DNA of 64,000 nucleotides from Polaromonas sp. GTDB taxonomy: Bacteria > Pseudomonadota > Gammaproteobacteria > Burkholderiales > Burkholderiaceae_C. A program made the translations under genes and the position numbers. The stretch is taken from positions 1 through 64,000 of the forward strand of contig JAIPCZ010000002.1 in the NCBI GenBank assembly GCA_021737975.1, given 5' to 3'. This document shows positions 44,735 through 62,526 of this stretch, piece by piece (the first letter of the stretch is position 1; every line of letters begins with the position of its first letter). Under the pieces are notes generated by a model. The model saw nothing but the letters and a program-made list of their open reading frames with translations. It had not been told where the DNA came from and did no database searches.

Positions 44735-45550
44735 ATGCCGCTCAAAAGCACATCCGATTCCGCCCGTGGCACCGAGGGCAAAAACGGCGTCCAGTCCCTT
44801 GAAATTGGCATGGCGATCCTGCGTGCCATCAGTGGTGGCCACCGTGCCATGATGCTCAAGGACATTGCTGCAGCGGCGGACATGCCCGCCAGCAAAGTGC
44901 ACCGCTACATCGTGAGCCTGGTGCGCGCCGGGCTGGTGGAGCAAGACCCGGTTAGCGCGCGCTACGACCTGGGGCCCTTTGCCCTGAGCCTGGGGCTGGT
45001 GGCGGTGGAACGGCTGGACCGGGTCAAACTCGGCCTGCAAGCCATTGCCGAACTGCGCGATGAGGTCAATCAAACCATCGCGCTGGCGGTGTGGAGCGAC
45101 AACGGCCCGGTCATCATCCGTTCCTTGCGCCCCTACCGCCCCATCACCGTCAACGTGATCACCGGCAGCGCGCTGCAGTTGCTCACCTCGGCCAGTGGCC
45201 GGATTTTTGCCGCTTATTTGCCGCGCGGCACCACCGATGCGCTGATTGGGCGTGAACGCGCCACGCTGGCCTTGCCGCCTGAATTGCAAACCGACACTGG
45301 CATTGATGCCATGCTCGCCCGGGTGCGCGCTGACAAGCTGTCCGTGGTCAGTGATTACCACTTGGTGCCGGGAGTCGCGGCAGCCGCCGCGCCTGTTTTT
45401 AATTTCAAGCATGAAATCACCCTGTCGGTGCTGGCCATCGGTGTCAAAAGCATGATCGACCTGACGCCCGAGGGCAAGGTGGTGACCGCCCTGAAACGCT
45501 GCGCCCAGACGCTGTCGATGCGGCTGGGTCACGTCGAGCAAGACGCCTGA
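44735..45550 (+). CDS. IclR-family transcriptional regulator of the aromatic/LIV cluster
   Basis: 271 residues: winged helix-turn-helix (SLEIGMAILRAISGGHRAMMLKDIAAAADMPASKVHRYI, cores only) and a C-terminal IclR effector domain (VVSDYHLVPGVAAAAAPVF, LSVLAIG). Members control aromatic-acid genes such as pca, pob and hmg clusters. It is the first gene of the plus-strand aromatic region, with a promoter and a palindrome in the 257 bp before livH, so regulation of that operon is inferred. The effector is unknown. Confidence 0.9.
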   Translation: MPLKSTSDSARGTEGKNGVQSLEIGMAILRAISGGHRAMMLKDIAAAADMPASKVHRYIVSLVRAGLVEQDPVSARYDLGPFALSLGLVAVERLDRVKLGLQAIAELRDEVNQTIALAVWSDNGPVIIRSLRPYRPITVNVITGSALQLLTSASGRIFAAYLPRGTTDALIGRERATLALPPELQTDTGIDAMLARVRADKLSVVSDYHLVPGVAAAAAPVFNFKHEITLSVLAIGVKSMIDLTPEGKVVTALKRCAQTLSMRLGHVEQDA

Positions 45551-45751: not shown

Positions 45752-45808
45752 ATGTCGACATGCCCAACCCGTTTCGGGTGTTTTGAATCCGCGAGCAGGA
45801 GCGCCTGA
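45752..45808 (+). CDS. 18-codon upstream ORF coupled to livH
   Basis: AGGAGA seven bases before ATG 45752 starts an 18-residue peptide, MSTCPTRFGCFESASRSA. Its TGA shares the A with the livH ATG (TGATG overlap), so ribosomes finishing it can reinitiate on livH. The first codons lie in a 12-bp palindrome, CATGTCGACATG (45751-45762). No homologue was recognised. It is probably a leader ORF rather than a functional protein. Confidence 0.45.
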   Translation: MSTCPTRFGCFESASRSA

Positions 45809-46683
45809 TGCTGGCCGAATTTCTGCAATTCCTGTTTTCCGGCATCACCGTGGGCGCCACCTACGCGCTCGCCGCGCTGGGTTTCACGCTGATCTACAAC
45901 GCCAGCAATGTCATCAACTTTGCGCAGGGCGAATTCATCATGCTCGGCGGCATGCTGGCGGTGTTTTTTACCCAGGGCGGCCTGCCCATGCCCCTCGCGC
46001 TGGCGCTGGCCATTGCGCTGCCGGCGCTGGTGGGCGTGGTCGTGGAGAAGCTGGCCATCGAGCCGGTCAAGGGCGCCGAGTCGGTCACGCTGATCATCAT
46101 CACCATTGGCGCTTCGCTGGTCATTCGGGGTCTGGTTCAGGTCTGGCTCGGCAAGGGCACCTTCAGCCTGCCGGCGTTCTCGGGCGACGTGCCGCTGCAA
46201 ATTCTGGGCGCCACGCTGATGCCTCAAAGCCTGTGGGTGCTGGGTGTCACGGCCATCGTGGTGGTGGCGCTTTGGTACTTCTTCAACCGCACCCTGCACG
46301 GCAAGGCCATGCTGGCCACCTCCTACAACCGGGTGGCGGCCGAGCTCGTCGGCATCAACACCAACTGGGTGCTGTTTTTGAGCTTTGCCATGTCGGCGGC
46401 ATTGGGCGCGCTGGGGGGCATTCTGGTGACCCCCATCACGCTGACCTCCTATGACGTGGGCATCATGCTCGGCCTCAAGGGTTTTGTGGCCGCCGTGGTC
46501 GGCGGCCTGGGCAACGGCCTGGGCGCGGTGGTCGGCGGCTTGCTGGTGGGTATTCTGGAAGCCATGGGCGCGGGCTACATCTCGTCGTCCTACAAGGATG
46601 CGATCCCGTTTGTGCTGATCCTGCTGATCTTGTTCTTCATGCCGCGCGGCCTGTTTGGCGGCAAATCAACCGATCGGGTCTGA
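45808..46683 (+). CDS. livH: LIV-type ABC transporter permease LivH
   Basis: 291 residues with about eight membrane helices and the family start FLFSGITVGATYALAALGF, NFAQGEFIMLGGML and the EAA-like loop NRVAAELVGINTNWVLF. It is one of the two permeases of a branched-chain-amino-acid-type ABC importer. It is followed 2 bp later by livM. In the aromatic-degradation context the transporter may import an aromatic acid rather than leucine. Confidence 0.93.
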   Translation: MLAEFLQFLFSGITVGATYALAALGFTLIYNASNVINFAQGEFIMLGGMLAVFFTQGGLPMPLALALAIALPALVGVVVEKLAIEPVKGAESVTLIIITIGASLVIRGLVQVWLGKGTFSLPAFSGDVPLQILGATLMPQSLWVLGVTAIVVVALWYFFNRTLHGKAMLATSYNRVAAELVGINTNWVLFLSFAMSAALGALGGILVTPITLTSYDVGIMLGLKGFVAAVVGGLGNGLGAVVGGLLVGILEAMGAGYISSSYKDAIPFVLILLILFFMPRGLFGGKSTDRV

Positions 46684-46685
46684 GC

Positions 46686-47618
46686 ATGAAAAAGAGTCCT
46701 TTCATTGGCCTGTACATCATCATGGCCGTGCTGCTGGTGCTGCCCTTTGTGTTGCCCAACAGCTTCTATGTCGACCTGGCGATCCGCATGGCCATCAACG
46801 CCATCGTTGTGCTGGGGCTGAACCTGCTGATCGGCTTCGCCGGCCAGATCAGCCTGGGTCATGCCGGTTTTCTGGGCATCGGGGCCTACGCCTCGGCGGC
46901 ACTGCCGAGCCATTTCGGCTGGCACCCGATGCTGGCTTTGCTGGCCGGGGCCGCGGCAGCGGGTCTGCTGGCGGCCATTGTGGCGCGGCCCATTTTCAAG
47001 CTCAAGGGTCACTACCTGGCCATGGCCACCCTGGGACTGGGCATCATCATCAACATCGTGGTGCGCAACGAGGCCGCCTGGACCGGTGGCCCGGACGGCA
47101 TGCCGGTGCCTGCCATGAGCCTGGCCGGCTTCGAGATTTCGGGTGACAAACACTGGTACTGGATTGTTGCCATGCTGCTGTCGGTCAGTGTCTGGGCGTC
47201 GCTCAACCTGATCGACTCGCCATTTGGCCGCGCGCTGCGCGCGCTGCACGGCAGCGAGGTCGCCTCCAAGGTGGTGGGGGTCGACGTGGTGCGCTACAAG
47301 GTCGCCATCTTTGTGTTGTCGGCGGTGTTCGCCAGCATCATGGGCAGCGTGACCGCGCATTACGTGGGTTTTGTCACGCCCAACCTGGCGGACTTCTTCC
47401 ACTCCATCGAGCTGGTCACCATGGTAGTGATCGGCGGCATGGCCTCGGTCTACGGCTCGGTGGTGGGCGCCGTGCTGCTCACGGCCCTGCCGCAGGCGCT
47501 GACCTCGTTCGAAGGTTGGGAAACCGTGATCTTTGGCGCCATCCTGATGCTGTGCATGATCTTCCTGCCCAAAGGCCTGGTGCCCACCCTGGCCGCCAAA
47601 TTCAGCAAGGGAGAATGA
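46686..47618 (+). CDS. livM: LIV-type ABC transporter permease LivM
   Basis: 310 residues with about nine helices; GLNLLIGFAGQISLGHAGFLGIGAYASA is the typical LivM segment (core GQISLGHAGFLGIGAY). The cytoplasmic coupling loop reads RALRALHGSEVASKVVGVDV. Its TGA overlaps the start of livG. It partners LivH. Confidence 0.93.
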   Translation: MKKSPFIGLYIIMAVLLVLPFVLPNSFYVDLAIRMAINAIVVLGLNLLIGFAGQISLGHAGFLGIGAYASAALPSHFGWHPMLALLAGAAAAGLLAAIVARPIFKLKGHYLAMATLGLGIIINIVVRNEAAWTGGPDGMPVPAMSLAGFEISGDKHWYWIVAMLLSVSVWASLNLIDSPFGRALRALHGSEVASKVVGVDVVRYKVAIFVLSAVFASIMGSVTAHYVGFVTPNLADFFHSIELVTMVVIGGMASVYGSVVGAVLLTALPQALTSFEGWETVIFGAILMLCMIFLPKGLVPTLAAKFSKGE

Positions 47619-48382
47619 GCATGGCCCTGCTGGAAGTCAAAGACCTGTCGATCCACTTTGGTGGTGTCAAGGCGGTGCAAAACGTCAGCTTTACCATCGA
47701 CGCCGGCATTGTCTACGCGGTGATCGGCCCCAACGGCGCCGGTAAAACCACGCTGTTCAACCTGATCACGGGGGTCTACACACCGACCACCGGCACGATT
47801 TTTCTCGATGGTGAATCCATCGGCGGAAAATCGCCCGACGAGCTGGCCCGTCGTGGCGTAGCGCGCACGTTCCAGAACCTGCAAATTTGCATGAACATGA
47901 GCGCGGTTGAAAACGTCATGGTCGGCGCGCATTTGCGCTTGGACCGCAACCTGCTCAAGGCCGCCCTGCGCTGGCCCGCGCTCAAACGCCGCGACCGCGA
48001 ATTACATGGCGAGGCGGCTGAACTGATGCGTTTTGTCGGCCTGCACGACTACATCAACGCCCGCGCCGACAGCATGCCCTACGGTGCGCTCAAGCGGCTC
48101 GAAATCGCCCGTGCCCTGGCCATGAAGCCGCGCCTGATTTTTCTGGACGAGCCCGCTGCCGGCCTCAACCCCAAGGAAACCATCGAGGTCGATGCGCTGG
48201 TGCGCAAGGTGGCCGATTCGGGTGTCACGGTGGTGCTGGTCGAGCACGACATGAAGATGGTGATGAACCTCTCTGACCGGATTCTGGTGCTGGACTACGG
48301 CCGCAAGCTGACCGAGGGCACGGGTGCCGAAGTGCGCCGCAACCCCGATGTGATCGCCGCCTATCTTGGCGCACACGCCTGA
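47615..48382 (+). CDS. livG: LIV-type ABC transporter ATPase LivG
   Basis: 255 residues: Walker A IGPNGAGKTTLFN, LivG-type FQNLQICMNMSAVENVMVG, a signature read as PYGALKRLEIARALAMKP (degenerate relative to LSGG-Q, usual for LivG), Walker B LIFLDEPAAGLNP and the H-loop VEHDMKM. The ATGAGC start at 47615 overlaps the livM stop; ATG 47621 is an alternative. Confidence 0.93.
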   Translation: MSMALLEVKDLSIHFGGVKAVQNVSFTIDAGIVYAVIGPNGAGKTTLFNLITGVYTPTTGTIFLDGESIGGKSPDELARRGVARTFQNLQICMNMSAVENVMVGAHLRLDRNLLKAALRWPALKRRDRELHGEAAELMRFVGLHDYINARADSMPYGALKRLEIARALAMKPRLIFLDEPAAGLNPKETIEVDALVRKVADSGVTVVLVEHDMKMVMNLSDRILVLDYGRKLTEGTGAEVRRNPDVIAAYLGAHA

Positions 48383-48396
48383 ACCCAAGGGACACC

Positions 48397-49713
48397 ATGG
48401 ACGCACTCAACATCATCAGCCAGGACCACAGCAACCTGTGGCGTCTGGCCACCACCATTGACCACGTGGCCGCCGACATGGAAGCCGGCGCACCGGTCGA
48501 GCAGTCGTTTTTCAACGCGGTGTTTGACTACATCGAGCAGTTTGTGGACCGCTCGCACCATCCCAAGGAAGACGACTATCTGTTTCGGCTGCTGCGCCTG
48601 CGCAGCCCCGAGGCCGCGAGCATTTTGGACAGCCTGCAAGTTGAACACCGCGACGGTCCTGCCAAGCTGGCGGCCCTGCGCGACAAGGTCTCCCAGGCGA
48701 GCGCGGGCGCGTTGTCCGGTGGCCAGTTGGCCACCGAGCTGCGCAGCTACACCGTGGGCCTGAAGGCCCATATCCGCACCGAAGAAAAGAGTGTTTTGCC
48801 GCTGGCGCGCAGCGCGCTGCTGGAGGCAGACTGGGCCGAGATCAACCAGGCGTTTCTGGACAACGACGACCCGCTGTTCGGCGAGAAAGCCCGCGAAGAG
48901 TTTCGCCAACTGTTCCACCGCATCGTCAGCCTTGCCCCCGAGTCGGTGGGGCTGGGCGGGCACAGCGAGGGCACGCTGCAACCCTTGCCCGATCGCACCA
49001 AGGCCGAGGTGCAACTGCGCGTCGAAGGCATGGAGAGTTGTTACGGCCGCATCAAGGCGCTCAAGGGCATCAGCATCGAGGTGCGTCGCGGCGAAACCGT
49101 TGCGCTGGTCGGGGCCAACGGCGCGGGCAAGACCACGTTTTTGCGCACCCTGTCAGGCGTGCAGCCGATGAGCGCGGGCAGCATCCACTTCAAGGGCGAG
49201 GACATCAGCCGGCTGCGCTCGGACAAGCGCATGCGCCTGGGCATTTGCCAAAGCCCCGAAGGCCGCCAGGTGTTTGGCCCGCTGTCGATTGAAGACAACC
49301 TGGCGCTGGGCGCCTACACCCAGCCGCGCGAGCAGGTGGCAGGCGACATGGAAAAGATATTCACCATGTTCCCGATCCTGAAGGAAAAACGGGCCCTGCC
49401 GGCGGGCACCCTGTCGGGCGGCCAGCAACAGATGCTGGCCATCGGCCGCGCGCTGATGGGCCGGCCCAGCCTGCTGCTGCTCGACGAGCCGTCCATGGGC
49501 CTGGCGCCGCTGCTGGTCGAAGAAGTTTTTAACGTCATCAAGATGCTCAAGAGCAAGGGCATGACGATTTTGCTGGTCGAGCAAAACGCCTTTGCCGCGC
49601 TGGCCATTGCCGACCGCGGCTATGTGCTGGAGACCGGCACGGTCACCCTGACCGGAACCGGCCAGGAGCTCATCAGCAACGAACAGGTGCGCGCCGCGTA
49701 CCTCGGAATGTAA
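48397..49713 (+). CDS. Hemerythrin-LivF fusion: LIV-type ABC ATPase with N-terminal HHE domain
   Basis: 438 residues, about 200 longer than normal LivF. Residues 1-135 are a hemerythrin-like four-helix domain with all expected non-haem diiron ligands: His11, His54-x3-Glu58, His84, His125-x3-Glu129. After a linker (about 136-204) comes a complete LivF ATPase: Walker A GANGAGKTT (239-247), CQSPEGRQVFGPLS, signature LSGGQQQ, Walker B LLLLDEPSMGL and H-loop VEQNAF. Hemerythrin domains bind O2 or sense iron/redox state, so transport may be gated by oxygen or iron. The reading frame is continuous from a single ATG, 14 bp after livG. Confidence 0.93.
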   Translation: MDALNIISQDHSNLWRLATTIDHVAADMEAGAPVEQSFFNAVFDYIEQFVDRSHHPKEDDYLFRLLRLRSPEAASILDSLQVEHRDGPAKLAALRDKVSQASAGALSGGQLATELRSYTVGLKAHIRTEEKSVLPLARSALLEADWAEINQAFLDNDDPLFGEKAREEFRQLFHRIVSLAPESVGLGGHSEGTLQPLPDRTKAEVQLRVEGMESCYGRIKALKGISIEVRRGETVALVGANGAGKTTFLRTLSGVQPMSAGSIHFKGEDISRLRSDKRMRLGICQSPEGRQVFGPLSIEDNLALGAYTQPREQVAGDMEKIFTMFPILKEKRALPAGTLSGGQQQMLAIGRALMGRPSLLLLDEPSMGLAPLLVEEVFNVIKMLKSKGMTILLVEQNAFAALAIADRGYVLETGTVTLTGTGQELISNEQVRAAYLGM

Positions 49714-49734: not shown

Positions 49735-50700
49735 ATGACCAAAAAATTCGCATCCCAGGCCGACCTGGAAGTCAAGAAGACCACCTTTGCCCAGCTCTCC
49801 GAGCACTGCTGGGCCTACACCGCCGAGGGCGACCCCAACACCGGCGTCATCATTGGCGAGGACGCGGTGTTGATCTGCGACGCCCTGGCCACCCCGGTGA
49901 TGGCGCAAAGCCTGATCGCCGAGATCCGCAAGGTGTCCGACAAACCCATCAAATACGTGGTGCTGTCGCACTATCACGCGGTGCGCGTGCTGGGCGCCTC
50001 AGGCTACAAAGACGCGGGCATGCAGGAAATCATTGCCAGCCAGGGCACCTACGAGATGATCGTGGAGCGCGGCGCGCAAGACATGCAGTCCGAATACGAA
50101 CGCTTCCCGCGCCTGTTTGACGCCTTTGACTCCATCCCCGGCCTGACCTGGCCGACCATGGTGTTCAAGGACGAGATGACGCTGTGGATGGGCAAGCTCG
50201 AGGTCAAGATCATGCACGTGGGCCCCGGCCACACCAAGGGCGACACCATTGTCTGGGTGCCGTCTGAAAAAGTGCTGTTCTCGGGTGACCTGATGGAGGC
50301 CGATGCCGCCTGTTACACCGGCGACGCCCAGCTGGAGGAATGGCCCGCCACGCTCGACGCGCTGGCCGCCCTCAAGCCCGAAAAAATCGTGCCCGGCCGT
50401 GGCCCGGCGCTCGACACCCCAGAGCGTGTGGCCGCCGGCCTGGCCTACACCCGCGACTTTGTGACCACGCTGCTGAGCTCCGCCAAGGAAGCCGTGGCGC
50501 AGGGCATGAACCTGAACCAGGCGATGGCGCATTGCCGCAAGGCGATGGACCCCAAGTTTGGCCAGGTCTTCATCTACGAGCACTGCCTGCCATTTGACGT
50601 GACCCGCGCCGTGGACGAGGCCAGCGGCATCAAACACCCGCGCATCTGGACCGCCGAGCGCGACAAGGAAATGTGGCACGGCCTGCAAGCGGCTGAGTAA
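49735..50700 (+). CDS. MBL-fold metallo-hydrolase-like protein with altered metal motif
   Basis: 321 residues with the metallo-beta-lactamase fold: NTGVIIGEDAVLICDALATP, then LSHYHAVRVLG in place of HxHxDH. The two His remain, but the following Asp-His that bind the second metal are Val-Arg. Later ligands GPGHTKGD and FSGDLMEADAA are present. It may bind one metal or act on an acyl/CoA or glutathione ester differently from standard members. It starts 21 bp after the livF fusion and precedes the FAD monooxygenase gene. Confidence 0.82.
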   Translation: MTKKFASQADLEVKKTTFAQLSEHCWAYTAEGDPNTGVIIGEDAVLICDALATPVMAQSLIAEIRKVSDKPIKYVVLSHYHAVRVLGASGYKDAGMQEIIASQGTYEMIVERGAQDMQSEYERFPRLFDAFDSIPGLTWPTMVFKDEMTLWMGKLEVKIMHVGPGHTKGDTIVWVPSEKVLFSGDLMEADAACYTGDAQLEEWPATLDALAALKPEKIVPGRGPALDTPERVAAGLAYTRDFVTTLLSSAKEAVAQGMNLNQAMAHCRKAMDPKFGQVFIYEHCLPFDVTRAVDEASGIKHPRIWTAERDKEMWHGLQAAE

Positions 50701-50743: not shown

Positions 50744-52417
50744 ATGTTGAGCACTTACCAATATCCGAAATTTGACTACGCCCGCCCGCCCGAGCAGTCC
50801 GGCGCTGGCAAGAAGCGCTACCCCGTGGTGGTGGTCGGCGCCGGCCCGGTGGGCCTGGCGGCGGCCATCGAGCTGGCCCAGTCCGGCGTGCCGGTAGTGC
50901 TGCTCGACGACGACGACACCGTCTCGGTGGGCTCGCGCGGCGTCTGTTACGCCAAGCGCACGCTTGAGGTGCTGGACCGCCTTGGCCTGGGTGAGCCTTG
51001 TATGGACAAGGGTGTGAGCTGGAACGTGGGCCGCACCTTTTTCCGCGAGCAGGAGGTCTACAACTTCAACCTCTTGCCCCAAGCTGACCACAAGCGCCCC
51101 GGCATGATCAACCTGCAGCAGTACTACCTTGAGGAGTTCGAGGTGACACGCGCCAAGGAACTGCCGAACCTGGACCTGCGCTTCAAAAACAAGGTGCTTT
51201 CCGTGACGCCTCAAGGTGATGGCGCCACGCTGCAAGTCGAGACCCCTGACGGCGTTTACACACTGGAAACCGACTGGCTGGTGGTGGCCGACGGCGCTCG
51301 CAGCGGTATTCGACGCCTGATGAACCTGGACATCGAGGGCAAGATTTTCAAGGACCGCTTCCTGATTGCCGACGTGGTCATGAAGGCCGATTTTCCGCAC
51401 GAGCGCTGGTTCTGGTTTGACCCGCCGTTTCACCCGGGCCAGTCGGTGTTGCTGCACCGCCAGGCCGACAACGTCTACCGCATCGACTTCCAGTTGGGCT
51501 GGGACGCCGACCCCGAGGAAGAAAAGAAACCCGAAAAAGTCATTCCGCGCATCAAGGCCATGCTTGGCGACGAGCGCGAGTTCGAGCTCGAATGGGTCAG
51601 CGTCTACACCTTCCAGTGCCGCCGCATGAACGCCTTCACCCACGGCCACGTGCTGTTTGCGGGTGATGCCGCGCACCAGGTGTCGCCCTTTGGCGCGCGT
51701 GGCGCCAACTCCGGCATTCAGGACACCGACAACCTGTGCTGGAAACTCAAACTGGTGATCGAGGGCAAGGCCCCGCCCGAGCTGCTCGACACCTACTCCG
51801 AAGAGCGTGTCTTTGCCGCCGAAGAAAACCTGATGAATTCCACCCGCTCCACCGACTTCATCACGCCCAAAAGCAAGACCTCGCTGATGTTTCGCAATGC
51901 CACCCTCAGCCTGGCGCGCGAACATGCCTTTGCCCGTGCGCTGGTCAACTCCGGGCGCCTGTCGGTGCCGGCCATCCTCACCGCGTCGAGCCTGAACACG
52001 CCTGACAGCGATGTCTTTGCCGGCGACATGGTGCCCGGCGCCCCCATGGACGACGCGCCCATGCATGTGGACGGCCGCGAGTCCTGGCTGCTCGACAACG
52101 TGGGCAAGTGTTTCATGGTGTTGCTGTACGTCACCGACCCGGCGCAGGTGAGCACCGAACTGTTGAACGCCTTCGCGGCCGTGGCCAGTGGCCCGCTGGC
52201 GCCCGAACTGGTGCTGGTGTCGGGCAAGCCGGGTGTGGCGCCGCAAGGCCTTCGCCTGCTGGAAGACCGGGCAGGGCGTTTTGCCGAGCGCTTTGACGCG
52301 CGGATGGGCACGAGCTACCTGATTCGCCCGGACCAGCATGTGGCGGCACGCTGGCGCAGCCTTGACGCGGCGCACGTTGGCACCGCGCTGGCCCGCGCCA
52401 CCTGCAAACTGCAATAA
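50744..52417 (+). CDS. Class A FAD-dependent aromatic-ring monooxygenase
   Basis: 557 residues of the PHBH/MhpA-type flavin hydroxylases. GAGPVGLAAAIELAQSG (FAD Rossmann), VADGARSGIRRLMN (DG motif) and FAGDAAHQVSPFGARGANSGIQD (GD motif, cores only) are intact; the C-terminal thioredoxin-like domain is present. It uses NAD(P)H and O2 to hydroxylate an aromatic ring, by family probably a 3-hydroxyphenyl-acid. The substrate is not assignable from sequence; neighbours suggest hydroxyphenylacetate- or hydroxybenzoate-like compounds. Confidence 0.9.
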   Translation: MLSTYQYPKFDYARPPEQSGAGKKRYPVVVVGAGPVGLAAAIELAQSGVPVVLLDDDDTVSVGSRGVCYAKRTLEVLDRLGLGEPCMDKGVSWNVGRTFFREQEVYNFNLLPQADHKRPGMINLQQYYLEEFEVTRAKELPNLDLRFKNKVLSVTPQGDGATLQVETPDGVYTLETDWLVVADGARSGIRRLMNLDIEGKIFKDRFLIADVVMKADFPHERWFWFDPPFHPGQSVLLHRQADNVYRIDFQLGWDADPEEEKKPEKVIPRIKAMLGDEREFELEWVSVYTFQCRRMNAFTHGHVLFAGDAAHQVSPFGARGANSGIQDTDNLCWKLKLVIEGKAPPELLDTYSEERVFAAEENLMNSTRSTDFITPKSKTSLMFRNATLSLAREHAFARALVNSGRLSVPAILTASSLNTPDSDVFAGDMVPGAPMDDAPMHVDGRESWLLDNVGKCFMVLLYVTDPAQVSTELLNAFAAVASGPLAPELVLVSGKPGVAPQGLRLLEDRAGRFAERFDARMGTSYLIRPDQHVAARWRSLDAAHVGTALARATCKLQ

Positions 52418-52673: not shown

Positions 52674-53213
52674 ATGCAAATCCAGAAAATCCACCATGTG
52701 GCCTACCGCTGCAAAGATGCCAAACAGACCGTGGAGTGGTACGGCAAGTACCTCAACATGAATTTCATTTTGGCGATCGCCGAGAACGAGGTGCCTTCCA
52801 CCAAGGAGCCCGACCCCTATATGCACGTCTTTCTGGACGCCGGCGGCGGCAATGTGCTGGCTTTTTTCGAGTTGCCCACCAAACCCGAGATGAGCCGCGA
52901 CATGAACACCCCGGCCTGGACACAACACCTGGCCATGCAAGTGGCGACGGTCGACGAGTTGCTCGAAACCAAGGCCAAGCTCGAAGCCGATGGCATCGAG
53001 GTGGTGGGGCCGACCGACCACACCATCTTCAAGTCGATCTACTTCTTTGACCCCAGCGGTCACCGGCTGGAACTGGCCGCCAACACCGGCACACCCAAGA
53101 TGGCGAAGATGCTCGACGATGCCAAGTGGGACATGCTCAACGAATGGGCCGTTACCAAAAAGGCCCCGCAGCACGCGCGCTGGATGCACGACGGCTCTTA
53201 TGCCGGGGAGTAA
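52674..53213 (+). CDS. VOC-family protein (glyoxalase/extradiol dioxygenase-like)
   Basis: 179 residues with two VOC half-modules. Candidate metal ligands by position are His8 (KIHHVAY), His85 (TQHLAMQV) and Glu133 (GHRLELAA), the 2-His-1-Glu set used by extradiol dioxygenases and by glyoxalase-type enzymes. The length is shorter than type I extradiol dioxygenases (about 290 aa), so a one-module dioxygenase or an isomerase/lyase is possible. It lies between the ring monooxygenase and the fumarylacetoacetase-type hydrolase and may open or isomerise the ring product. Confidence 0.8.
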   Translation: MQIQKIHHVAYRCKDAKQTVEWYGKYLNMNFILAIAENEVPSTKEPDPYMHVFLDAGGGNVLAFFELPTKPEMSRDMNTPAWTQHLAMQVATVDELLETKAKLEADGIEVVGPTDHTIFKSIYFFDPSGHRLELAANTGTPKMAKMLDDAKWDMLNEWAVTKKAPQHARWMHDGSYAGE

Positions 53214-53219
53214 AGACAC

Positions 53220-54251
53220 ATGAAACTGGCCACCCTCAAACAAGGCGGACGCGACGGCACGCTGGTCGTGGTCAACCGCGCCCTGACCCACTGCCGCGCC
53301 GTGCCCGCCATCGCGCGCACGCTGCAAGCCGCGCTGGACGACTGGGAGGCTTGTGAGCCGCAGTTGCGCCAGGTCTATGAAGCCCTCAACAGCGTTGCCT
53401 TTTCCGACCCCGAGGTGTTCGACCCGGCGCTGTGCCACTCGCCGCTGCCGCGCGCCTACCAGTGGGCCGACGGCTCGGCCTACGTGAACCACGTGGAACT
53501 GGTGCGCCGCGCCCGCGGTGCCGACTTGCCGCCCTCGTTCTGGACCGACCCCTTGATGTACCAGGGCGGCTCGGATTCGTTTGTCGGTCCGCGCGACCCC
53601 GTTTACGCCCTGTCCGAAGACTGGGGCATCGACCTCGAGGCCGAGGTGGCGGTGGTCACCGGCGATGTGCGCATGGGTTGCAGCGTGGCTGACGCCGCCA
53701 AATCGGTGCGCCTGCTGATGCTGGTCAACGACGTCTCGTTGCGCAACCTGATTCCGGCCGAGCTGGCCAAGGGATTTGGCTTCTTCCAGTCCAAGCCCGC
53801 GTGTGCGTTCAGCCCGGTGGCGGTCACGCCCGACGAGCTTGGTGCCGACTGGTCTGACAGCCGGGTGCACCGGCCCTTGACCGTGCACCTCAACGGCGCC
53901 CTGTTTGGCCAGCCCGATGCGGGCACCGACATGGTTTTCAACTTTGCCCAACTCATTGCCCACGCGGCCAAAACACGGGAACTGGAAGCGGGTTCGGTCA
54001 TTGGCTCGGGCACGGTGTCGAACAAGCAGGGTGGGCTGCAGGGCTCGTCGATCGCCAATGGCGGCGTCGGCTACTGCTGCATTGCCGAGCTGCGCACGTA
54101 CGAAACCATCGAATCCGGCGAACCGAAAACCGACTACATGAAGTTTGGCGACCGCGTGCAGATTGACATGAGCGACCGCGCCGGCGCCTCGATTTTTGGC
54201 GCCATCGACCAAACCGTCACCCGATATCCAGGCGCCGCGACGCGGGATTAA
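53220..54251 (+). CDS. Fumarylacetoacetate hydrolase-family protein (bacterial FAH type)
   Basis: 343 residues, beginning MKLATLKQGGRDGTLVVVN and continuing PRAYQWADGSAYVNHVELVR, SFWTDPLMYQGGSDSFVGP and DWGIDLEAEVAVVTGDV (the metal-binding Glu/Asp residues). It resembles the short bacterial fumarylacetoacetase of homogentisate degradation, which cleaves fumarylacetoacetate to fumarate and acetoacetate. No homogentisate dioxygenase gene is in the window, so the substrate may be another ring-fission product. Only 6 bp separate it from the VOC gene. Confidence 0.88.
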   Translation: MKLATLKQGGRDGTLVVVNRALTHCRAVPAIARTLQAALDDWEACEPQLRQVYEALNSVAFSDPEVFDPALCHSPLPRAYQWADGSAYVNHVELVRRARGADLPPSFWTDPLMYQGGSDSFVGPRDPVYALSEDWGIDLEAEVAVVTGDVRMGCSVADAAKSVRLLMLVNDVSLRNLIPAELAKGFGFFQSKPACAFSPVAVTPDELGADWSDSRVHRPLTVHLNGALFGQPDAGTDMVFNFAQLIAHAAKTRELEAGSVIGSGTVSNKQGGLQGSSIANGGVGYCCIAELRTYETIESGEPKTDYMKFGDRVQIDMSDRAGASIFGAIDQTVTRYPGAATRD

Positions 54252-54289: not shown

Positions 54290-55957
54290 ATGACCCATGT
54301 TCTGTTTGAAAAGCACCGCGCCAAGCTCGACGCCGCGCTCAACGCCATCCACACCCGTGGCTACTGGGCCGCGTACAACGAGATGCCCAGCCCCAAGACC
54401 TATGGCGAAACCGCCCCCGCAGACGGCAAGTCAGCGTTCGAGGCGCACCTGGGCCAGAAGTTTGACTTGCAGCAGCCCGGCACCACCGCCTGGCTGGCGC
54501 CCGAGGTGTCGCCGTTTGGCATTGAGCTGAACGTGCAGTACCCGGTGTGCGACATCGAGGCGCTGATTGGCGCTGGCCAGGCCGCCATGCCCGGCTGGCA
54601 GGCGGCAGGGGTGGAGGGCCGCACCGGCCTGTGCGTCGAAATGCTCGACCGCCTGAACGCGCAAAGCTTCGAGATCGCCCATGCGGTGATGATGACCACC
54701 GGCCAGGGCTGGATGATGGCCTTCCAGGCCGGCAGCCCGCACGCCCAGGACCGTGGCCTGGAGGCCGTGAGCTACGCTTACCGCGAGCAAAGCTTTGTGC
54801 CCGCCGAGGCCACCTGGGAAAAACCGCAAGGCAAAAATCCGCCGCTGGTCATGAAAAAGCATTTCGAGATCGTCGGCCGCGGTGTGGCCGTGGTGGTGGG
54901 TTGCGCCACTTTCCCGACCTGGAACACCTATCCCGGTCTGTTCGCGGCGCTGGCGACCGGCAACGCGGTCATTGTCAAACCGCATGACAACGCGGTGCTG
55001 CCTGCCGCCATCACGGTGCGCACCCTGCGCGCGGTCCTGGCCGAGCATGGCATGGACCCCAATCTGGTCACCCTGTGTGTGCCGGCCAGGCCCGAAACCA
55101 CGCAGACGCTGGTGACGCACCCGGCAGTGAAATCGGTCGACTTCACCGGCGGCAACGTGTTTGGCCAGTGGCTCATCGACCACTGCCGCCAGGCCCAGGT
55201 CTATGCCGAGCTGGCCGGTGTGAACAACATCGTGATCGACTCGACCGACGCCTACAAACCCATGCTGCGCAACCTGGCGTTCACGCTGTCGCTGTACTCG
55301 GGCCAGATGTGCACCACCTCGCAAGCGCTGCTGGTGCCCGCCGGCGGCATTGACACCGAAGACGGCCACAAGACCTATGACGAGGTGTGCGCCGACCTGG
55401 CCCGCGCCATTGAGGGTTTTCTGGCCAAACCCGAGGTGGCTTTTGCCGTGCTCGGCGCGGTGCAATCCCAAGCCACGCTGGCGCGTATCGCGCTCGCAAA
55501 CGGCGGCACTCTGGGCCGGGTGCTGCTGGCCTCAAGGAAACTCGACAACCCCGAGTTCCCCAAGGCTGACGTGCACACCCCGGTGCTGCTGGCCTGCGAC
55601 GCCGCCGATGAGGCCGCCTACATGGAAGAGCGTTTTGGCCCCATCACCTTTGTCGTCAAGGTGGCCGACACCGCGGCCGCCATTGCCCTGTCGGAGCGCA
55701 TCATCAGCAGCCACGGCGCGCTCACGGCCGGCCTCTACTCGACCCGTGCCGACGTGATCGACGCCATGACGGCAGCCACCTGGCGTTCCAAGGTGGCCCT
55801 GTCGATCAACCTGACCGGCGCGGTGTTTGTGAACCAGTCCGCCGCGTTCTCCGACTACCACGGCACCGGCGGCAACCCCGCGGCCAACGCCTCGTACTCG
55901 GACTCGGCCTTTGTCGCCAACCGCTTCCGGGTGGTGCAGCGTCGTTACCACGTTTGA
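54290..55957 (+). CDS. paaN: PaaN: aldehyde dehydrogenase-superfamily phenylacetate-degradation protein
   Basis: 555 residues of the aldehyde dehydrogenase superfamily, PaaN type. The nucleophile Cys is in GQMCTTSQALLV and the general-base Glu in YAELAGVNNIV; FTGGNVFGQWL supplies the cofactor fold. Unlike PaaZ there is no C-terminal MaoC hydratase domain. It likely oxidises the ring-opened aldehyde (3-oxo-5,6-dehydrosuberyl-CoA semialdehyde) in the Paa pathway. It starts 38 bp after the FAH gene and leads the paa genes. Confidence 0.9.
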   Translation: MTHVLFEKHRAKLDAALNAIHTRGYWAAYNEMPSPKTYGETAPADGKSAFEAHLGQKFDLQQPGTTAWLAPEVSPFGIELNVQYPVCDIEALIGAGQAAMPGWQAAGVEGRTGLCVEMLDRLNAQSFEIAHAVMMTTGQGWMMAFQAGSPHAQDRGLEAVSYAYREQSFVPAEATWEKPQGKNPPLVMKKHFEIVGRGVAVVVGCATFPTWNTYPGLFAALATGNAVIVKPHDNAVLPAAITVRTLRAVLAEHGMDPNLVTLCVPARPETTQTLVTHPAVKSVDFTGGNVFGQWLIDHCRQAQVYAELAGVNNIVIDSTDAYKPMLRNLAFTLSLYSGQMCTTSQALLVPAGGIDTEDGHKTYDEVCADLARAIEGFLAKPEVAFAVLGAVQSQATLARIALANGGTLGRVLLASRKLDNPEFPKADVHTPVLLACDAADEAAYMEERFGPITFVVKVADTAAAIALSERIISSHGALTAGLYSTRADVIDAMTAATWRSKVALSINLTGAVFVNQSAAFSDYHGTGGNPAANASYSDSAFVANRFRVVQRRYHV

Positions 55958-55966
55958 GGCCTCGCC

Positions 55967-56758
55967 ATGACCTACCAGAATATTCGTTTTGAAGCCCGGG
56001 ACGGTATTGCCCGCCTGACGCTGAACCGGCCGGACAAGCTCAACAGCTTCAACGGCGCCATGCACGCCGAGTTGCGCGCCGCGCTCGATGTCGTGCAGCA
56101 CGACAAAAGCATCCGCGTGCTGGTCATCACCGGCGCCGGGCGCGGTTTTTGCGCGGGGCAGGACCTGGCCGACCCCGACATGGCCATGGGCCCGCTGCAG
56201 CCCGACATCGGCAACGTGGTAGAGCACAACTACAAGCCGCTGATTTTGGCGCTGCAAAACCTGCGCGTGCCCACCGTGGCACAAGTCAACGGTATCGCCG
56301 CCGGGGCCGGGGCCAGCCTGGCGCTGGCCTGCGACCTGGTGATTGCCGGCAAGTCGGCCGCATTTCTGCAGGCCTTCAGCAAAATCGGCCTGATTCCCGA
56401 CACCGGCGGCACCTGGTTCCTGCCACAGCGCGTGGGCATGGCCCGCGCCATGGGGCTGGCACTGCTGGCCGACAAATTACCCGCAGAAAAAGCCGCCGAA
56501 TGGGGACTGATCTGGCAAGCCGTCGAGGACAGCGACCTGACCGCCACGGTGGACCAGCTCGCCACGCAACTGGCCGCCATGCCGACCAAGGCGCTGGTGC
56601 GCACGCGCCAAGCCATGCACGCCGCGCCCAACCACACGCTGGAGCAGCAGCTCAACATGGAAGGCGGCTTCATGCGCGAGCTGGGCTGGAGCCCGGACTT
56701 TGCCGAAGGTGTGGCCGCCTTCATGGAAAAGCGCGCACCCAGGTTCACCGGAAACTGA
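55967..56758 (+). CDS. paaG: PaaG: ring-1,2-epoxyphenylacetyl-CoA isomerase
   Basis: 263 residues of the crotonase family. The oxyanion loops read GAGRGFCAGQDLADPD and VAQVNGIAAGAGASLALACDLV; SKIGLIPDTGGTWFLPQRVG contains the PaaG-type acidic residue. It converts the phenylacetyl-CoA epoxide to the oxepin and later shifts a double bond. Nine bp downstream of paaN and 7 bp before paaH. Confidence 0.93.
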   Translation: MTYQNIRFEARDGIARLTLNRPDKLNSFNGAMHAELRAALDVVQHDKSIRVLVITGAGRGFCAGQDLADPDMAMGPLQPDIGNVVEHNYKPLILALQNLRVPTVAQVNGIAAGAGASLALACDLVIAGKSAAFLQAFSKIGLIPDTGGTWFLPQRVGMARAMGLALLADKLPAEKAAEWGLIWQAVEDSDLTATVDQLATQLAAMPTKALVRTRQAMHAAPNHTLEQQLNMEGGFMRELGWSPDFAEGVAAFMEKRAPRFTGN

Positions 56759-56765
56759 GCACCCC

Positions 56766-58289
56766 ATGACACAAGCGCTCTCACAACTAGCCGTGGTCGG
56801 TGTCATCGGCGCCGGGGCCATGGGTGCCGGTATTGCCCAGGTGGCAGCCCAGGGCGGGCACCCGGTCAAGCTGCTCGACAATCGCCCCGGCGCGGCCGCC
56901 CAGGCCATTGCCGGCATTCGTGCCCAGTTTGAAAAAATGGCGGCCAAGGGCAAGCTCAGCCCCGAACTTGCCAGCGCGGCTGGTGCGCGTTTGCAGGCCG
57001 TCGACCAAGTCTCTGAACTGGCCGATGCGGCCTTGGTGGTGGAAGCCATTGTGGAAAACCTGCAGGTCAAACAAACGCTGTTCAAGGAACTAGAAGCCGT
57101 GGTCTCCGGGGGCTGCATTCTGGCCAGCAACACCTCGTCGATTTCCATCACCGCGATTGGTGCAGCACTTGCCAGCCCGCAACGCCTGGCAGGCTTGCAC
57201 TTCTTCAACCCGGCACCGCTGATGGCGCTGGTGGAAGTGGTGTCGGGCCTGGCCACCGCGCCGGAAGTGGCCGGCACCTTGTATGACACCGCGCTGGCCT
57301 GGGGCAAGACCCCGGTGCACGCCAAGTCCACCCCCGGTTTTATTGTCAACCGGGTGGCGCGCCCCTATTACGCCGAAGCCTTGCGCGTGCTGACCGAGGG
57401 CGGTGCCGATTGCGCCACGCTCGATGCCTGCTGCCGCGAGGCGGGTGGGTTTCGCATGGGGCCGTTCGAACTGATGGACATGATCGGCCACGACGTCAAC
57501 TTTGCCGTGACCAGCTCGGTGTGGCGCGCGTTTTTCAACGACCCGCGTTTCTTGCCCTCGCTGATCCAGCAGGATTTGGTCGATGCCGGTTTTCTGGGAA
57601 AAAAATCCGGCCGGGGTTTTTACAGCTACGAGGAAGGCGCCAGCAAACCGCCGCCCGCCACCGTGCCGGCGCTGGCACGGCCCCATGCCATCGTGCTGTA
57701 CGGCCAGTCTGCCGCGGCCCGGGCCATTGCCTTGCGCCTGCAAGCCAATGGCGTTGCCTTCACCCAGGCCCAGGCGAAGGGCGACACGCTGGCCACTGCG
57801 GGTGACGCCACCCTGCGCGTGACCGATGGCCGCACTGCCACCCGCTGTGCATTTGACACCCAGACCCCCAACACCGTGCTGATTGATTTGGCGCTGGACT
57901 ACTCAAAAGCCACCCGCCTGGCCGTGAGTGTGGCCGCACGGTGCGACGACGCGGCCGCCAACAGCGCCATCGGTTTGCTGCAAGCGGCGGATTTTGCCGT
58001 GTCGCAACTGCAGGACATTCCCGGCCTGATCGTCATGCGCACCGTGGCCATGCTGGCCAATGAGGCGGCGGATGCCGTCAACCAGGGCGTGTGTGATGCC
58101 GCCGCTGTCGACACCGCGATGCGCCTGGGCGTCAATTACCCCTGCGGACCGCTGGCTTGGGCCAACAGCCTTGGCCTGGCGCAGCTCAGCACGGTGCTCG
58201 GCCATCTGGCGCAAACCTATGGCGAGGACCGCTACCGCACCTCGCCCCTGATCCAACACCACGTTTTTGCCGCAAAGGACTTTTCATGA
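56766..58289 (+). CDS. paaH: PaaH: 3-hydroxyadipyl-CoA dehydrogenase
   Basis: 507 residues, a 3-hydroxyacyl-CoA dehydrogenase with two C-terminal 3HCDH domains, typical of PaaH (longer than FadB-type partners). The NAD site is VIGAGAMGAGIAQVAAQGG; the catalytic His-Glu pair lies around LHFFNPAPLMALVEV. It oxidises 3-hydroxyadipyl-CoA. Its TGA overlaps the paaI ATG. Confidence 0.92.
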   Translation: MTQALSQLAVVGVIGAGAMGAGIAQVAAQGGHPVKLLDNRPGAAAQAIAGIRAQFEKMAAKGKLSPELASAAGARLQAVDQVSELADAALVVEAIVENLQVKQTLFKELEAVVSGGCILASNTSSISITAIGAALASPQRLAGLHFFNPAPLMALVEVVSGLATAPEVAGTLYDTALAWGKTPVHAKSTPGFIVNRVARPYYAEALRVLTEGGADCATLDACCREAGGFRMGPFELMDMIGHDVNFAVTSSVWRAFFNDPRFLPSLIQQDLVDAGFLGKKSGRGFYSYEEGASKPPPATVPALARPHAIVLYGQSAAARAIALRLQANGVAFTQAQAKGDTLATAGDATLRVTDGRTATRCAFDTQTPNTVLIDLALDYSKATRLAVSVAARCDDAAANSAIGLLQAADFAVSQLQDIPGLIVMRTVAMLANEAADAVNQGVCDAAAVDTAMRLGVNYPCGPLAWANSLGLAQLSTVLGHLAQTYGEDRYRTSPLIQHHVFAAKDFS

Positions 58290-58810: not shown

Positions 58811-60136
58811 ATGACTGCCAAAGCCCCCCAACCCGGCGAACTTGACGCGATTGAAACCGCCAGCCGCGACGAAATTTCGGCCCTGCAACTCGAACGCCTC
58901 AAATGGTCGCTGCAGCACGCCTACGACAACGTGCCGTTTCACAAAAAGGCGTTCGACGACAAAGGTGTGCACCCCAGTGATCTGAAAACCCTGGCCGACC
59001 TCGCCAAGTTCCCGTTCATGACCAAGACCGCGCTGCGCGACCAGTACCCCTTTGGCCTGTTTGCCGTGCCAAAGGAAAAAGTCGCGCGGCTACACGCCTC
59101 CAGCGGCACTACAGGCAAGTCGATCGTGGTCGGCTACACGCTCAAGGACATCGACAACTGGGCCAATCTGGTGGCGCGCTCGATCCGCGCCGCCGGTGGC
59201 CGTGCCGGCGACATGCTGCACAACGCCTACGGCTACGGCATGTTCACCGGTGGCCTGGGCGCGCACTATGGCGCCGAGCGCCTGGGTTGCACCGTGGTGC
59301 CGATGTCGGGCGGCCAGACCGAAAAGCAGGTGCAGCAGATCGTTGATTTCCAGCCGCAAATCATCATGGTCACCCCCAGCTACTCGCTGGTGATCGCCGA
59401 GGAGTTCGAGCGCCTGGGCATCACGCCGGATCAGATTTCGCTCAAGATCGGCATCTTTGGCGCCGAGCCCTGGGGTGAGGGCATGCGCAAGGAGATCGAG
59501 CGCAAACTCGGGATCGATGCCATCGACATCTACGGCCTGACCGAAGTCATGGGCCCGGGCGTGGCGTGTGAATGTATTGAATCGAAAGACGGCCCGGTGA
59601 TCTGGGAAGACCATTTCTACCCCGAGATCATCGACCCCGAAACCGGCGAGGTGCTGCCGGACGGCTCCGACGGCGAACTGGTGTTCACCTCGCTGTCCAA
59701 GGAAGCTTTTCCGGTCATCCGTTACCGCACCCGTGACCTCACGCGCCTGCTGCCGCCCACCTCGCGCGCGTTCCGGCGCATGGGCAAGATCACCGGCCGC
59801 TCGGACGACATGCTGATCGTGCGTGGTGTCAACGTGTTCCCGAGCCAGATCGAGGAGCAAATCCTGCGCGACAAGCGGCTCTCGGGCAACTACCAGATCT
59901 TGCTGAGCCGCGACGGCCACCTCGACAACGTCGAGGTGCGCTGCGAGCTGCAGCGCGAATTCTCCGGCAAGCTGTCGGCGGCTGACGTGGCGACCCTGTC
60001 GAAGGAGTTGCAGCACCACATCAAGACCATCGTCGGCATCTCGACCCGCGTCACCGTGCTGGGTTTCGAGGCGATTCCGCGCACCCAAACCGGCAAGGCG
60101 CGCCGCCTGATCGATGAGCGGCCCAAGCAAATCTAA
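58811..60136 (+). CDS. paaK: PaaK: phenylacetate-CoA ligase
   Basis: 441 residues, the normal length. The adenylate signature LHASSGTTGKSIVVGYT, YGLTEVMGPGVACEC and ITGRSDDMLIVRGVNVFPSQIEEQ (C-terminal mobile domain, core GRSDDMLIVRG) are intact. It activates phenylacetate to phenylacetyl-CoA with ATP, the entry step of the pathway. It follows an AGGAGA SD. Confidence 0.95.
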   Translation: MTAKAPQPGELDAIETASRDEISALQLERLKWSLQHAYDNVPFHKKAFDDKGVHPSDLKTLADLAKFPFMTKTALRDQYPFGLFAVPKEKVARLHASSGTTGKSIVVGYTLKDIDNWANLVARSIRAAGGRAGDMLHNAYGYGMFTGGLGAHYGAERLGCTVVPMSGGQTEKQVQQIVDFQPQIIMVTPSYSLVIAEEFERLGITPDQISLKIGIFGAEPWGEGMRKEIERKLGIDAIDIYGLTEVMGPGVACECIESKDGPVIWEDHFYPEIIDPETGEVLPDGSDGELVFTSLSKEAFPVIRYRTRDLTRLLPPTSRAFRRMGKITGRSDDMLIVRGVNVFPSQIEEQILRDKRLSGNYQILLSRDGHLDNVEVRCELQREFSGKLSAADVATLSKELQHHIKTIVGISTRVTVLGFEAIPRTQTGKARRLIDERPKQI

Positions 60137-60146
60137 GGAACCCACC

Positions 60147-61352
<1,206 letters not shown>

Positions 61353-61380: not shown

Positions 61381-62526
61381 ATGAAATTCACGATGAAAAA
61401 ACTGGTCATTGGCACCGCATTGGCAATGGGCACACTGGCTGCCATGGCGGCGGACACGATCAAGATCGGCTCCGTTCTGTCGGTCACCGGCCCGGCCGCC
61501 TTTTTGGGCGACCCCGAGCTCAAGACGCTGCAGATGTATGTCGAAGAGATCAACAAGAAAGGCGGCGTGATCGGTCGCCAGCTGGAGCTGGTGCATTACG
61601 ACGACGGCAGTGATGCCGGCAAGGCCAACGGCTTTGGCAAGCGCTTGATCGACGACGACAAGGTCGACATCATTGTGGGCGGCACCACCACCGGGTCCAC
61701 CATGTCGATGGCGCCGCTGGTCGAAAAAGCCGGTATTCCTTTCATCTCCCTCGCCGGTGCGGTGGTGATTGTTGAGCCGGTCAAGAAGTGGGTGTTCAAG
61801 ACCCCGCACACCGACCGCATGGCCGCTGAAAAGGTTTTTGAAGACATGAAAAAACGCGGCCTGACCAAGGTCGCCCTGTTCTCCGAGACCAGCGGCTTTG
61901 GCCAGTCCGGCAAGAAGGAAACCGAGGGTGTGGCGGCCAAGTACGGCATCACGCTGGTCGCCAACGAAACCTACGGCCCCAAGGACACCGACATGAGCCC
62001 GCAGCTCACCAAGATCCGCAATGTGCCGGGCGTCCAGGCCGTGTTCATTTTTGGTCTGGGTCAGGGTCCGGCCATTGCCACCAAGGGCTACAAGCAGCTC
62101 GGCATGACGCTGCCGCTGTACCACGCGCATGGTGTGGCGTCTGATGAGTTCATCAAGCTCGCCGGCCCTGCCGCTGAAGGTGTTCGCCTGCCGGCCGCCG
62201 CGCTGCTGGTGGCCAACAAGCTGGCCGCCAATGACCCGCAAAAGCCTGTGGCCGAAGGCTACACCAAGGCTTACAGCGCCAAGTGGAAATCGGATGTGTC
62301 GACTTTTGGCGGTCATGCCTATGACGGCCTGATGCTGGCGGTGGATGCGATCAAGCGCGCCGGCAGCACCGACAAGGCCAAGGTCCGCGACGCGATTGAG
62401 GCCACCAAGGGTTTCGTCGGCACCGGCGGCCTGGTCAACATGTCGGCCACCGACCACATGGGCCTCGACCTGTCAGCCTTCAAGATGCTTGAAATCAAGA
62501 ACGGTGACTGGACGCTGGCGCAATAA
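61381..62526 (+). CDS. livK: LIV-type ABC transporter substrate-binding protein
   Basis: 381 residues: a signal peptide (KLVIGTALAMGTLAAMAA) and a periplasmic type I binding fold with IKIGSVLSVTGPAAFLGDPE, NKKGGVIGRQLELVHYDDG and DKVDIIVGGTTTGSTM. It is the only LIV binding protein in the window, 11.7 kb from livF but in the same presumed operon, so it likely feeds LivHMGF. The ligand may be phenylacetate or another aromatic acid. Confidence 0.9.
   Translation: MKFTMKKLVIGTALAMGTLAAMAADTIKIGSVLSVTGPAAFLGDPELKTLQMYVEEINKKGGVIGRQLELVHYDDGSDAGKANGFGKRLIDDDKVDIIVGGTTTGSTMSMAPLVEKAGIPFISLAGAVVIVEPVKKWVFKTPHTDRMAAEKVFEDMKKRGLTKVALFSETSGFGQSGKKETEGVAAKYGITLVANETYGPKDTDMSPQLTKIRNVPGVQAVFIFGLGQGPAIATKGYKQLGMTLPLYHAHGVASDEFIKLAGPAAEGVRLPAAALLVANKLAANDPQKPVAEGYTKAYSAKWKSDVSTFGGHAYDGLMLAVDAIKRAGSTDKAKVRDAIEATKGFVGTGGLVNMSATDHMGLDLSAFKMLEIKNGDWTLAQ

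Follow-up and report, generated by a model that had tools for sequence, protein, structure and literature searches.

A hemerythrin-type domain fused to the LivF ATPase of an importer in a Polaromonas phenylacetate gene cluster

A hemerythrin domain encoded in one frame with LivF

The stretch of DNA analyzed here, the window, has a length of 64,000 nucleotides and covers positions 1 to 64,000 of contig JAIPCZ010000002.1 in a Polaromonas sp. genome assembly (GCA_021737975.1) that is incomplete (69.5%, 66 contigs). It contains a gene that joins a hemerythrin (HHE) domain to a LivF-type ABC ATPase, located among the genes for a Liv-type importer within a phenylacetate degradation cluster (Table 1). 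An earlier reading made from the letters of the window (the sequence-only reading) had proposed that the two domains are joined in one frame. This is confirmed by the ATG-to-stop frame, which has the sequence AAGGGA 4 bases upstream of the ATG, and by the domain models. The Pfam Hemerythrin domain (PF01814) was identified at residues 3-137 (E 2.1e-15, 57.8 bits against a curated cut-off of 25.3) and ABC_tran at residues 222-366 (E 9.2e-30), and the NCBIfam LivF model spans residues 205-437 with a score of 267 bits, under the equivalog cut-off of 441. The ATPase half is LivF-like, rather than an equivalog of the branched-chain amino acid LivF of the E. coli type.

The ATPase half contains the Walker A motif (GANGAGKTT, residues 239-247; 49111-49137), the signature motif (LSGGQ, residues 339-343), and the Walker B motif (LLLLDEP). 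With livH, livM, and livG directly upstream, it has both the motifs and the context of a LivF. When the full-length model was searched with Foldseek, the best solved match was 1ji0, and the 50 matches shown were all ABC ATPases. At the position that we take to be that of the H-loop histidine, the LivF half contains a glutamine (VEQN; residues 395-397, window 49579-49587), whereas LivG has a histidine (VEHD); the HHE domain is carried by the ATPase with the altered H-loop and not by LivG.

The structure model of the HHE domain has four long helices (residues 2-29, 36-69, 71-102, and 108-140) and two short ones, and it predicts the four-helix bundle of PF01814 with its set of diiron ligands. The ligands are H11, H54, E58, H84, H125, and E129, and their positions, like those of the Walker A motif, had been given correctly in the sequence-only reading. 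A profile search of the PDB matched YtfE, NMB1532, and FBXL5, while a single-sequence search with residues 1-188 gave only chance-level matches. A Foldseek search with the model of the domain yielded no match with an E value under 0.001; 3cax was matched with E 0.066 (probability 1.00). Of the fold matches, only 2p0n and 3cax were clearly separated from unrelated bundles. The linker between the two halves has pLDDT values below 50 at residues 190-201 and a median identity to the window of 53% among 25 other fusions.

We rejected a frameshift or an assembly join at the junction, where the frame is open in 59 distinct sequences. A free LivF produced by internal restart is also unsupported: a stretch resembling a Shine-Dalgarno sequence followed by a start codon occurs within residues 188-214 in 18 of 50 fusions, at varying positions. 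The window does have a GTG at codon 205 (49009) closely preceded by AAGG, at which a free LivF might be initiated, but this start is not conserved.

The importer operon and the phenylacetate cluster

The sequence-only reading had placed the importer beside an FAD monooxygenase and PaaABCDE. The first part holds, as the fusion gene is followed by a gene for a metallo-beta-lactamase-fold protein and then by the FAD monooxygenase gene, the product of which presumably uses O2. The second does not, as paaA starts 13.8 kb downstream. An enoyl-CoA hydratase gene is located between the genes for the binding protein and PaaA, and a second PF05138 match follows at 64705 of contig C56. The binding protein was assigned to the importer because its relatives adjoin livH (L234-L236, L262, and L263; loci and genomes are designated by L and G numbers) or follow HHE-livF (L084). 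The gene neighborhood and the co-occurrence described below suggest that the substrate is probably phenylacetate or a close aromatic acid.

Table 1. Features of the window around the HHE-LivF fusion gene
Feature	Position	Strand	Basis or remark
IclR-family regulator	44735..45550	+	ahead of liv genes
livH permease	45808..46683	+	BPD_transp_2
livM permease	46686..47618	+	BPD_transp_2
livG, second ATPase	47615..48382	+	ABC_tran; without HHE
HHE-LivF fusion gene	48397..49713	+	438 aa, single ATG-to-stop frame
Hemerythrin (HHE) domain, residues 1-187	48397..48957	+	Pfam, conservation, structure models, fold matches
Linker, residues 188-204	48958..49008	+	structure model and identity among fusions
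LivF-type ABC ATPase domain, residues 205-438	49009..49710	+	motifs, Pfam, NCBIfam, Foldseek
Metallo-beta-lactamase-fold hydrolase	49735..50700	+	
FAD monooxygenase, PRK08132 subfamily	50744..52417	+	
Glyoxalase/dioxygenase-superfamily protein	52674..53213	+	
Fumarylacetoacetate hydrolase-family protein	53220..54251	+	
PaaN (phenylacetate degradation)	54290..55957	+	TIGR02288 above cut-off
Enoyl-CoA hydratase-like frame	55967-56758		PaaG by position
PaaH	56700..58289	+	TIGR02279 above cut-off; true start probably slightly inside
PaaK phenylacetate-CoA ligase	58811..60136	+	TIGR02155 above cut-off
3-oxoadipyl-CoA thiolase	60114..61352	+	TIGR02430 above cut-off
Periplasmic binding protein, probable partner of the HHE-LivF importer	61381..62526	+	similarity and synteny
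PaaA/PaaC family (PF05138), PaaA by position	63498..64000	+	leaves the window, continues to 64322 of contig C56

The putative diiron site resembles that of YtfE

Hemerythrins and bacteriohemerythrins that carry O2 bind their irons with five histidines, a glutamate, and an aspartate, and have a second histidine in the third helix. The HHE domain has a single conserved histidine (H84) in this helix and four histidines and two glutamates overall, a pattern that does not fit a reversible O2 carrier. FBXL5 also has a hemerythrin-like domain (3u9j and 6q09 represent FBXL5 and the mycobacterial hemerythrin-like protein HLP) but, unlike our protein, is part of a ubiquitin ligase, and its match in the profile search was weaker than that of YtfE.

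The ligand pattern instead resembles that of YtfE, also known as RIC. According to PMC9268430, the irons of YtfE are bound by H84, H204, H129, H160, E133, and E208. In the profile alignment to YtfE (5fnn and others), the motifs HxxxE...H...HxxxE correspond, and five of the six ligands align; H11 falls outside the aligned stretch and would stand for H84 of YtfE. YtfE differs in that it is a stand-alone protein with an N-terminal ScdA domain and a role in NO and iron-center repair, and has no ATPase, whereas our domain is placed on LivF. No ScdA domain was identified in the Pfam scan of the fusion protein, in which the HHE match begins at residue 3. The mycobacterial HLP is a stand-alone protein with a tyrosine ligand, as described in PMC8913304, and is in this respect unlike the HHE domain in the window.

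Conservation and spread of the fusion

To describe the conservation of the fusion, we used a scan of genome contigs, in which 79 loci were kept out of 104 relatives, and loci taken from 100 related genomes. The nearest relatives with names include several that are Rhodoferax or other Comamonadaceae, and the host is probably of this kind. Over the retrieved loci, 81 are fused, and these represent 71 distinct HHE sequences. An alignment was made of 59 distinct N-terminal fusions, including that in the window and some truncated at contig ends, with 28 further distinct HHE proteins. Five ligands (H54, E58, H84, H125, and E129) are present in 59/59 fusions and 28/28 other HHE proteins, and H11 is present in 58 of the fusions, with a gap in one partial copy, and in 26 of the other proteins, the rest being gaps. 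Both halves of the fusion are under purifying selection, with a median dN/dS among 26 fusion sequences of 0.22 for the HHE half (290 of 325 pairs) and 0.07 for the ABC half (319 of 325 pairs). The fusion is conserved across genera, rather than being split by a frameshift into two genes in all homologs, which the sequence-only reading had named as a result that would speak against it. The recurrence of HHE plus ABC_tran that it had proposed to look for is seen in the 59 distinct fusions, and in the genus sample the fusion co-occurs with PaaA.

This sample consists of 60 genomes, of which 16 contain a fused-type HHE, although the contig ends within the HHE domain in G042 and the gene in G021 is irregular. 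Homologs of PaaA or PaaC (PF05138 matches above 200 bits only, so that weaker ones such as the 67-bit match in G049 are excluded) are present in 14 of the 16 genomes, the exceptions being G021 and G042, versus 7 of the 44 others (Fisher p 5.9e-7, among genomes that are related and partly incomplete). In nine of these 14 genomes, PaaA shares a contig with the fused-type HHE at a distance of about 6 to 15 kb, and in five it is on a different contig. The 100 relatives have 18 places with LivM orthologs of at least 81% identity; a fused-type HHE adjoins 17 of them, and at the remaining one the contig ends. Ten other LivM proteins in the order sample have at least 75% identity, eight of them with an adjoining fusion, one split over contigs (G951), and one with none (G900). 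In G021 (L024:835-2649 of G021:C82), LivG, HHE, and LivF form one frame of 605 aa in which the first 40 HHE residues, including H11, are missing; this is probably an in-frame deletion or an assembly fault that joined livG to HHE-livF.

HHE proteins are repeatedly joined to Liv importers

We inferred a quick phylogeny of the HHE domains, for which 148 sequences were considered and 103 kept in addition to the window; O rows of at most 175 bits, sequences shorter than 165 aa, and near-copies with at least 85% identity were left out. The N-terminal fusions formed one group with an SH-aLRT support of 97, comprising 50 rows and L022, which is cut by a contig end. In L209 and L225, LivF and HHE are joined in the reverse order in one frame, and the HHE lineages of these two proteins differ from that of the N-terminal fusions and from each other. 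Elsewhere, HHE is encoded by its own gene, located directly after livF in L094, L106-L109, L112-L116, L029, L037, L182, L183, L212, L220, L222, and L223, and after livM in L025/L185; in L100 and L208, this gene is flanked by those for benzoate-CoA ligase and the binding protein. Some loci represent one record met twice (L084/L134, L107/L183, L025/L185, and L022/L095).

At the order level, 60 of the 62 listed HHE places were retrieved; the window and G203, which had already been included, make up the rest. Ten are N-terminal fusions, two are C-terminal fusions, eight have a liv gene at most 400 bases away, three are fused to UspA, and 37 fall in none of these categories, although liv genes are 0.8 to 6 kb away in three of the latter (L187, L210, and L233). 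At the class level, 40 of 62 listed places, counting that of the window, were retrieved, and two are LivF fusions and 38 are other. Consequently, the coupling of HHE to Liv systems is confined to some HHE lineages, rather than being a trait of the whole family.

Two other arrangements were observed. HHE is fused to UspA in L213:5983-7005 (-) according to Pfam, and in L205, L216, L237, L240, and L033 by similarity. An HHE gene is located directly after the gene for the large permease (DctM) of a TRAP transporter in L111:5757-7851, and the link between HHE and transporters may thus reach past ABC systems.

Many of the neighboring pathways that can be named depend on oxygen

In L109, the HHE-Liv operon is located beside genes for 3-hydroxybenzoate 6-monooxygenase, a gentisate 1,2-dioxygenase-like protein (under the NCBIfam cut-off), an FAH-family protein, and MaiA. 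Ring-cleavage neighbors of the same type were identified by similarity in L094, L108, and L112-L114. Genes for LigB are located beside HHE-Liv in L107, L115, and L116, with LigA shown in the latter two, and a piece of the N-terminal end of 4-hydroxybenzoate 3-monooxygenase is present at the edge of L116. In L222, the neighbors are a BphD-like hydrolase, 4-hydroxy-2-oxovalerate aldolase, and an acetaldehyde dehydrogenase domain, which represent a meta-cleavage route, the dioxygenase of which is not among the genes seen there. The benzoate-CoA ligase gene adjoins the HHE gene in L100 and L208, and BoxB is encoded near in the same genomes (L259 and L194).

As a control, we examined 14 stretches around all 28 hits to PF06050 from five of the 16 genomes searched. 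This family comprises benzoyl-CoA reductase and 2-hydroxyglutaryl-CoA dehydratase, but also includes other enzymes; eight of the stretches have scores above 600 bits to a reference reductase-like protein, and six are at about 90-115, some of which may be other enzymes. HHE was present in none of the 14 stretches, though five contain liv genes, whereas it was present in five of six BoxB stretches (six of ten BoxB places were retrieved). In Aromatoleum, liv genes are located between the reductase and the side with benzoate-CoA ligase and BoxB in G105, G107, and G108, and beside the reductase in G109, where BoxB is on another contig, and no HHE adjoins them. In G101 and G1128, HHE is located inside the corresponding transporter operon, and a search for PF06050 in these two genomes gave no hit. 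The contrast between BoxB and PF06050 is a hint and not a census, because the genomes were chosen for having HHE next to liv genes. Together with the neighbors described above, this comparison ties HHE to O2-dependent pathways in loci where the neighbors can be named.

Away from the liv genes, the neighbor clusters shared by HHE loci, named from one or two representatives each, are the cbb3-oxidase accessory protein CcoG (eight loci: L136, L137, L189, L191, L195, L196, L206, and L214), a heavy-metal P-type ATPase (eight loci: L138, L211, L218, L227, L228, L231, L238, and L239), CcoP (six loci), and HemN (five loci), which suggests a setting of low-oxygen respiration for these relatives.

Relatives without the domain

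In a quick LivF phylogeny with a midpoint root (65 of 90 rows kept), two unfused LivF proteins (L090:8993-9688 and L261:9735-10430) were nested within the fused group, and both are encoded in paa clusters. L262 and L263 are also unfused, but their place in the phylogeny is uncertain, and 13 further unfused LivF proteins form an outer group, several of them with genes for PaaK-like or FAD monooxygenase-like proteins nearby. We infer one gain of the N-terminal HHE domain and then some losses, of which L090 and L261 are probably natural examples. As these two are located in paa clusters, transport presumably runs without the domain, which argues against an essential role for HHE in transport. The pattern of gain and loss indicates that HHE is an accessory domain, which suits a regulator but also a passenger.

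Two of 15 distant unfused stretches contain a different HHE-family gene of about 163 aa with a Pfam Hemerythrin match, located 77 bases past paaK in L276:231-725 (-) and about 2 kb past paaK in L269:15885-16385 (+). The LivF proteins in these clusters are unfused, and the genes tie HHE proteins to phenylacetate genes without attachment to LivF.

Discussion

The fusion, its conservation, the ligands, the genomic setting, and the repeated coupling of HHE and LivF are firm observations, and on them we base a model in which LivHM, LivG, and the binding protein form an importer of the HAAT/Liv type and the N-terminal HHE domain would act as a regulator built into its LivF. The four-helix bundle would bind two irons with its four histidines and two glutamates, and could adopt diferrous, oxo-bridged diferric, and metal-free states depending on O2 or redox conditions. 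These states would alter how the domain packs on LivF and thereby adjust ATP hydrolysis, so that uptake may be matched to the capacity of the O2-dependent pathway via PaaABCDE or the monooxygenase. What we infer is the occupancy of the metal site, the nature of the signal, the direction in which it acts, and the identity of the substrate. The interpretation in the sequence-only reading, that O2 or iron availability could gate the uptake of an aromatic acid, is partly supported. Of the readings considered, we favor this model, with about even odds that the diiron domain regulates the LivF ATPase by the state of O2, redox, or iron.

Several points weigh against such regulation. The linker is flexible, and the structure model is uninformative about contacts between HHE and the ATPase. 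Proteins of the YtfE class are not known as reversible O2 binders; with a site of this type, O2 sensing is no more likely than chemistry that involves redox, NO, or peroxide. Most HHE homologs are encoded apart from liv genes (37/60 at the order level and 38/40 at the class level, with a limit of 400 bases), the paa transporters in L090 and L261 presumably work without the domain, and, of the 16 LivM relatives at a greater distance (54-67% identity, order sample), a single one has the fusion. The link to O2 covers the loci with named neighbors, and thus does not extend to L025/L185, L029, L037, L106, L182, L209, L212, and L225, and the comparison of BoxB and PF06050 stretches is small and made on related genomes selected for HHE. 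The evidence bearing on the mechanism is anatomical and genomic.

Among the alternatives, a protective role survives best, though we consider it unlikely. Held at the membrane close to the importer and the ring-oxidizing enzymes, the domain would here consume O2, peroxide, or NO much as an enzyme does, and leave the ATPase unaffected. This would not require placement on LivF, whereas the ATPase is implicated by the fusions in both orders and by the HHE genes that stand separately next to livF, and none of the 14 PF06050 stretches, where damage by O2 would be worst, contains HHE. Less probable still is an iron gauge, in which the domain, like that of FBXL5, would fold only with iron and let the importer work when iron suffices for the diiron epoxidases PaaA or BoxB. 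The coupling is also present beside 3-hydroxybenzoate 6-monooxygenase (a flavin enzyme), the gentisate dioxygenase-like gene, and the LigB genes, none of which encodes a diiron enzyme, and the FBXL5 match was weaker than that of YtfE.

The domain could also be a neutral passenger or an assembly aid that stabilizes LivF/LivG as a fused partner, with the diiron site kept for fold stability only. Consistent with this, there were probably two or more losses of the domain in which the paa transporter was retained (L090 and L261), and the domain evolves faster than the ABC half. However, the ligands are kept in 59/59 fusions, with H11 in 58/59 and one gap, HHE and LivF have been joined repeatedly, and there is the hint of a link to aerobic pathways, which makes a mere passenger improbable. 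Delivery of iron or O2 by HHE to the diiron epoxidase near the site of substrate entry fits the nearby PaaA and a report on YtfE as an iron donor (PMC8117158), but is very improbable, as HHE-Liv is also located beside other oxygenases and the placement on the transporter ATPase is left unexplained.

Regulatory domains on importer ATPases have precedents in MetN (an ACT-like domain), OpuA/ProV (CBS domains), MalK, and ModC, in which a regulatory or sensory domain is likewise covalently placed on the ATPase. In these systems, the domain is C-terminal and binds small molecules or proteins, whereas the domain in HHE-LivF is of the diiron type and N-terminal, with C-terminal placement only in L209 and L225. 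We know of no described ABC importer with a diiron sensor of gas or redox state on its motor. The sequence-only reading had likewise known of no described transporter of this type. For the fusion this agrees with the open-licence PubMed Central literature, in which our searches found no description of it, but a version with separate genes is in print: PMC6449761 reports HHE of COG3945 as a gene of its own in benzoate clusters that include a benzoate ABC transporter, in Rhodocyclales and Rhodoferax ferrireducens. In both systems, an HHE protein adjoins a Liv-type transporter for aromatic acids and genes for O2-dependent degradation, but HHE is a separate gene in benzoate clusters in the former, and fused and in a phenylacetate cluster in the window. 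The HHE domain in the window would appear to belong to COG3945. In PMC6449761, the role of the separate gene is called unclear, and protection or O2 storage, rather than control of the transporter, is proposed.

It is conceivable, at somewhat less than an even chance, that HHE of this type is a recurring O2- or redox-responsive control module for aromatic-acid importers, which would control LivF either in cis (at its N-terminus in one large group and at its C-terminus in two more) or in trans (as a separate neighboring gene), and that bacteria at the oxic/anoxic border thereby import aromatic acids in step with the O2 available for ring opening. If this is true, a diiron center would control uptake directly at the ATPase of the transporter, linking O2, redox state, or iron to carbon entry without transcription. 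It would also provide a testable role for the HHE gene of the benzoate clusters described in PMC6449761, and for facultative degraders able to alternate oxic with anoxic ring breakdown.
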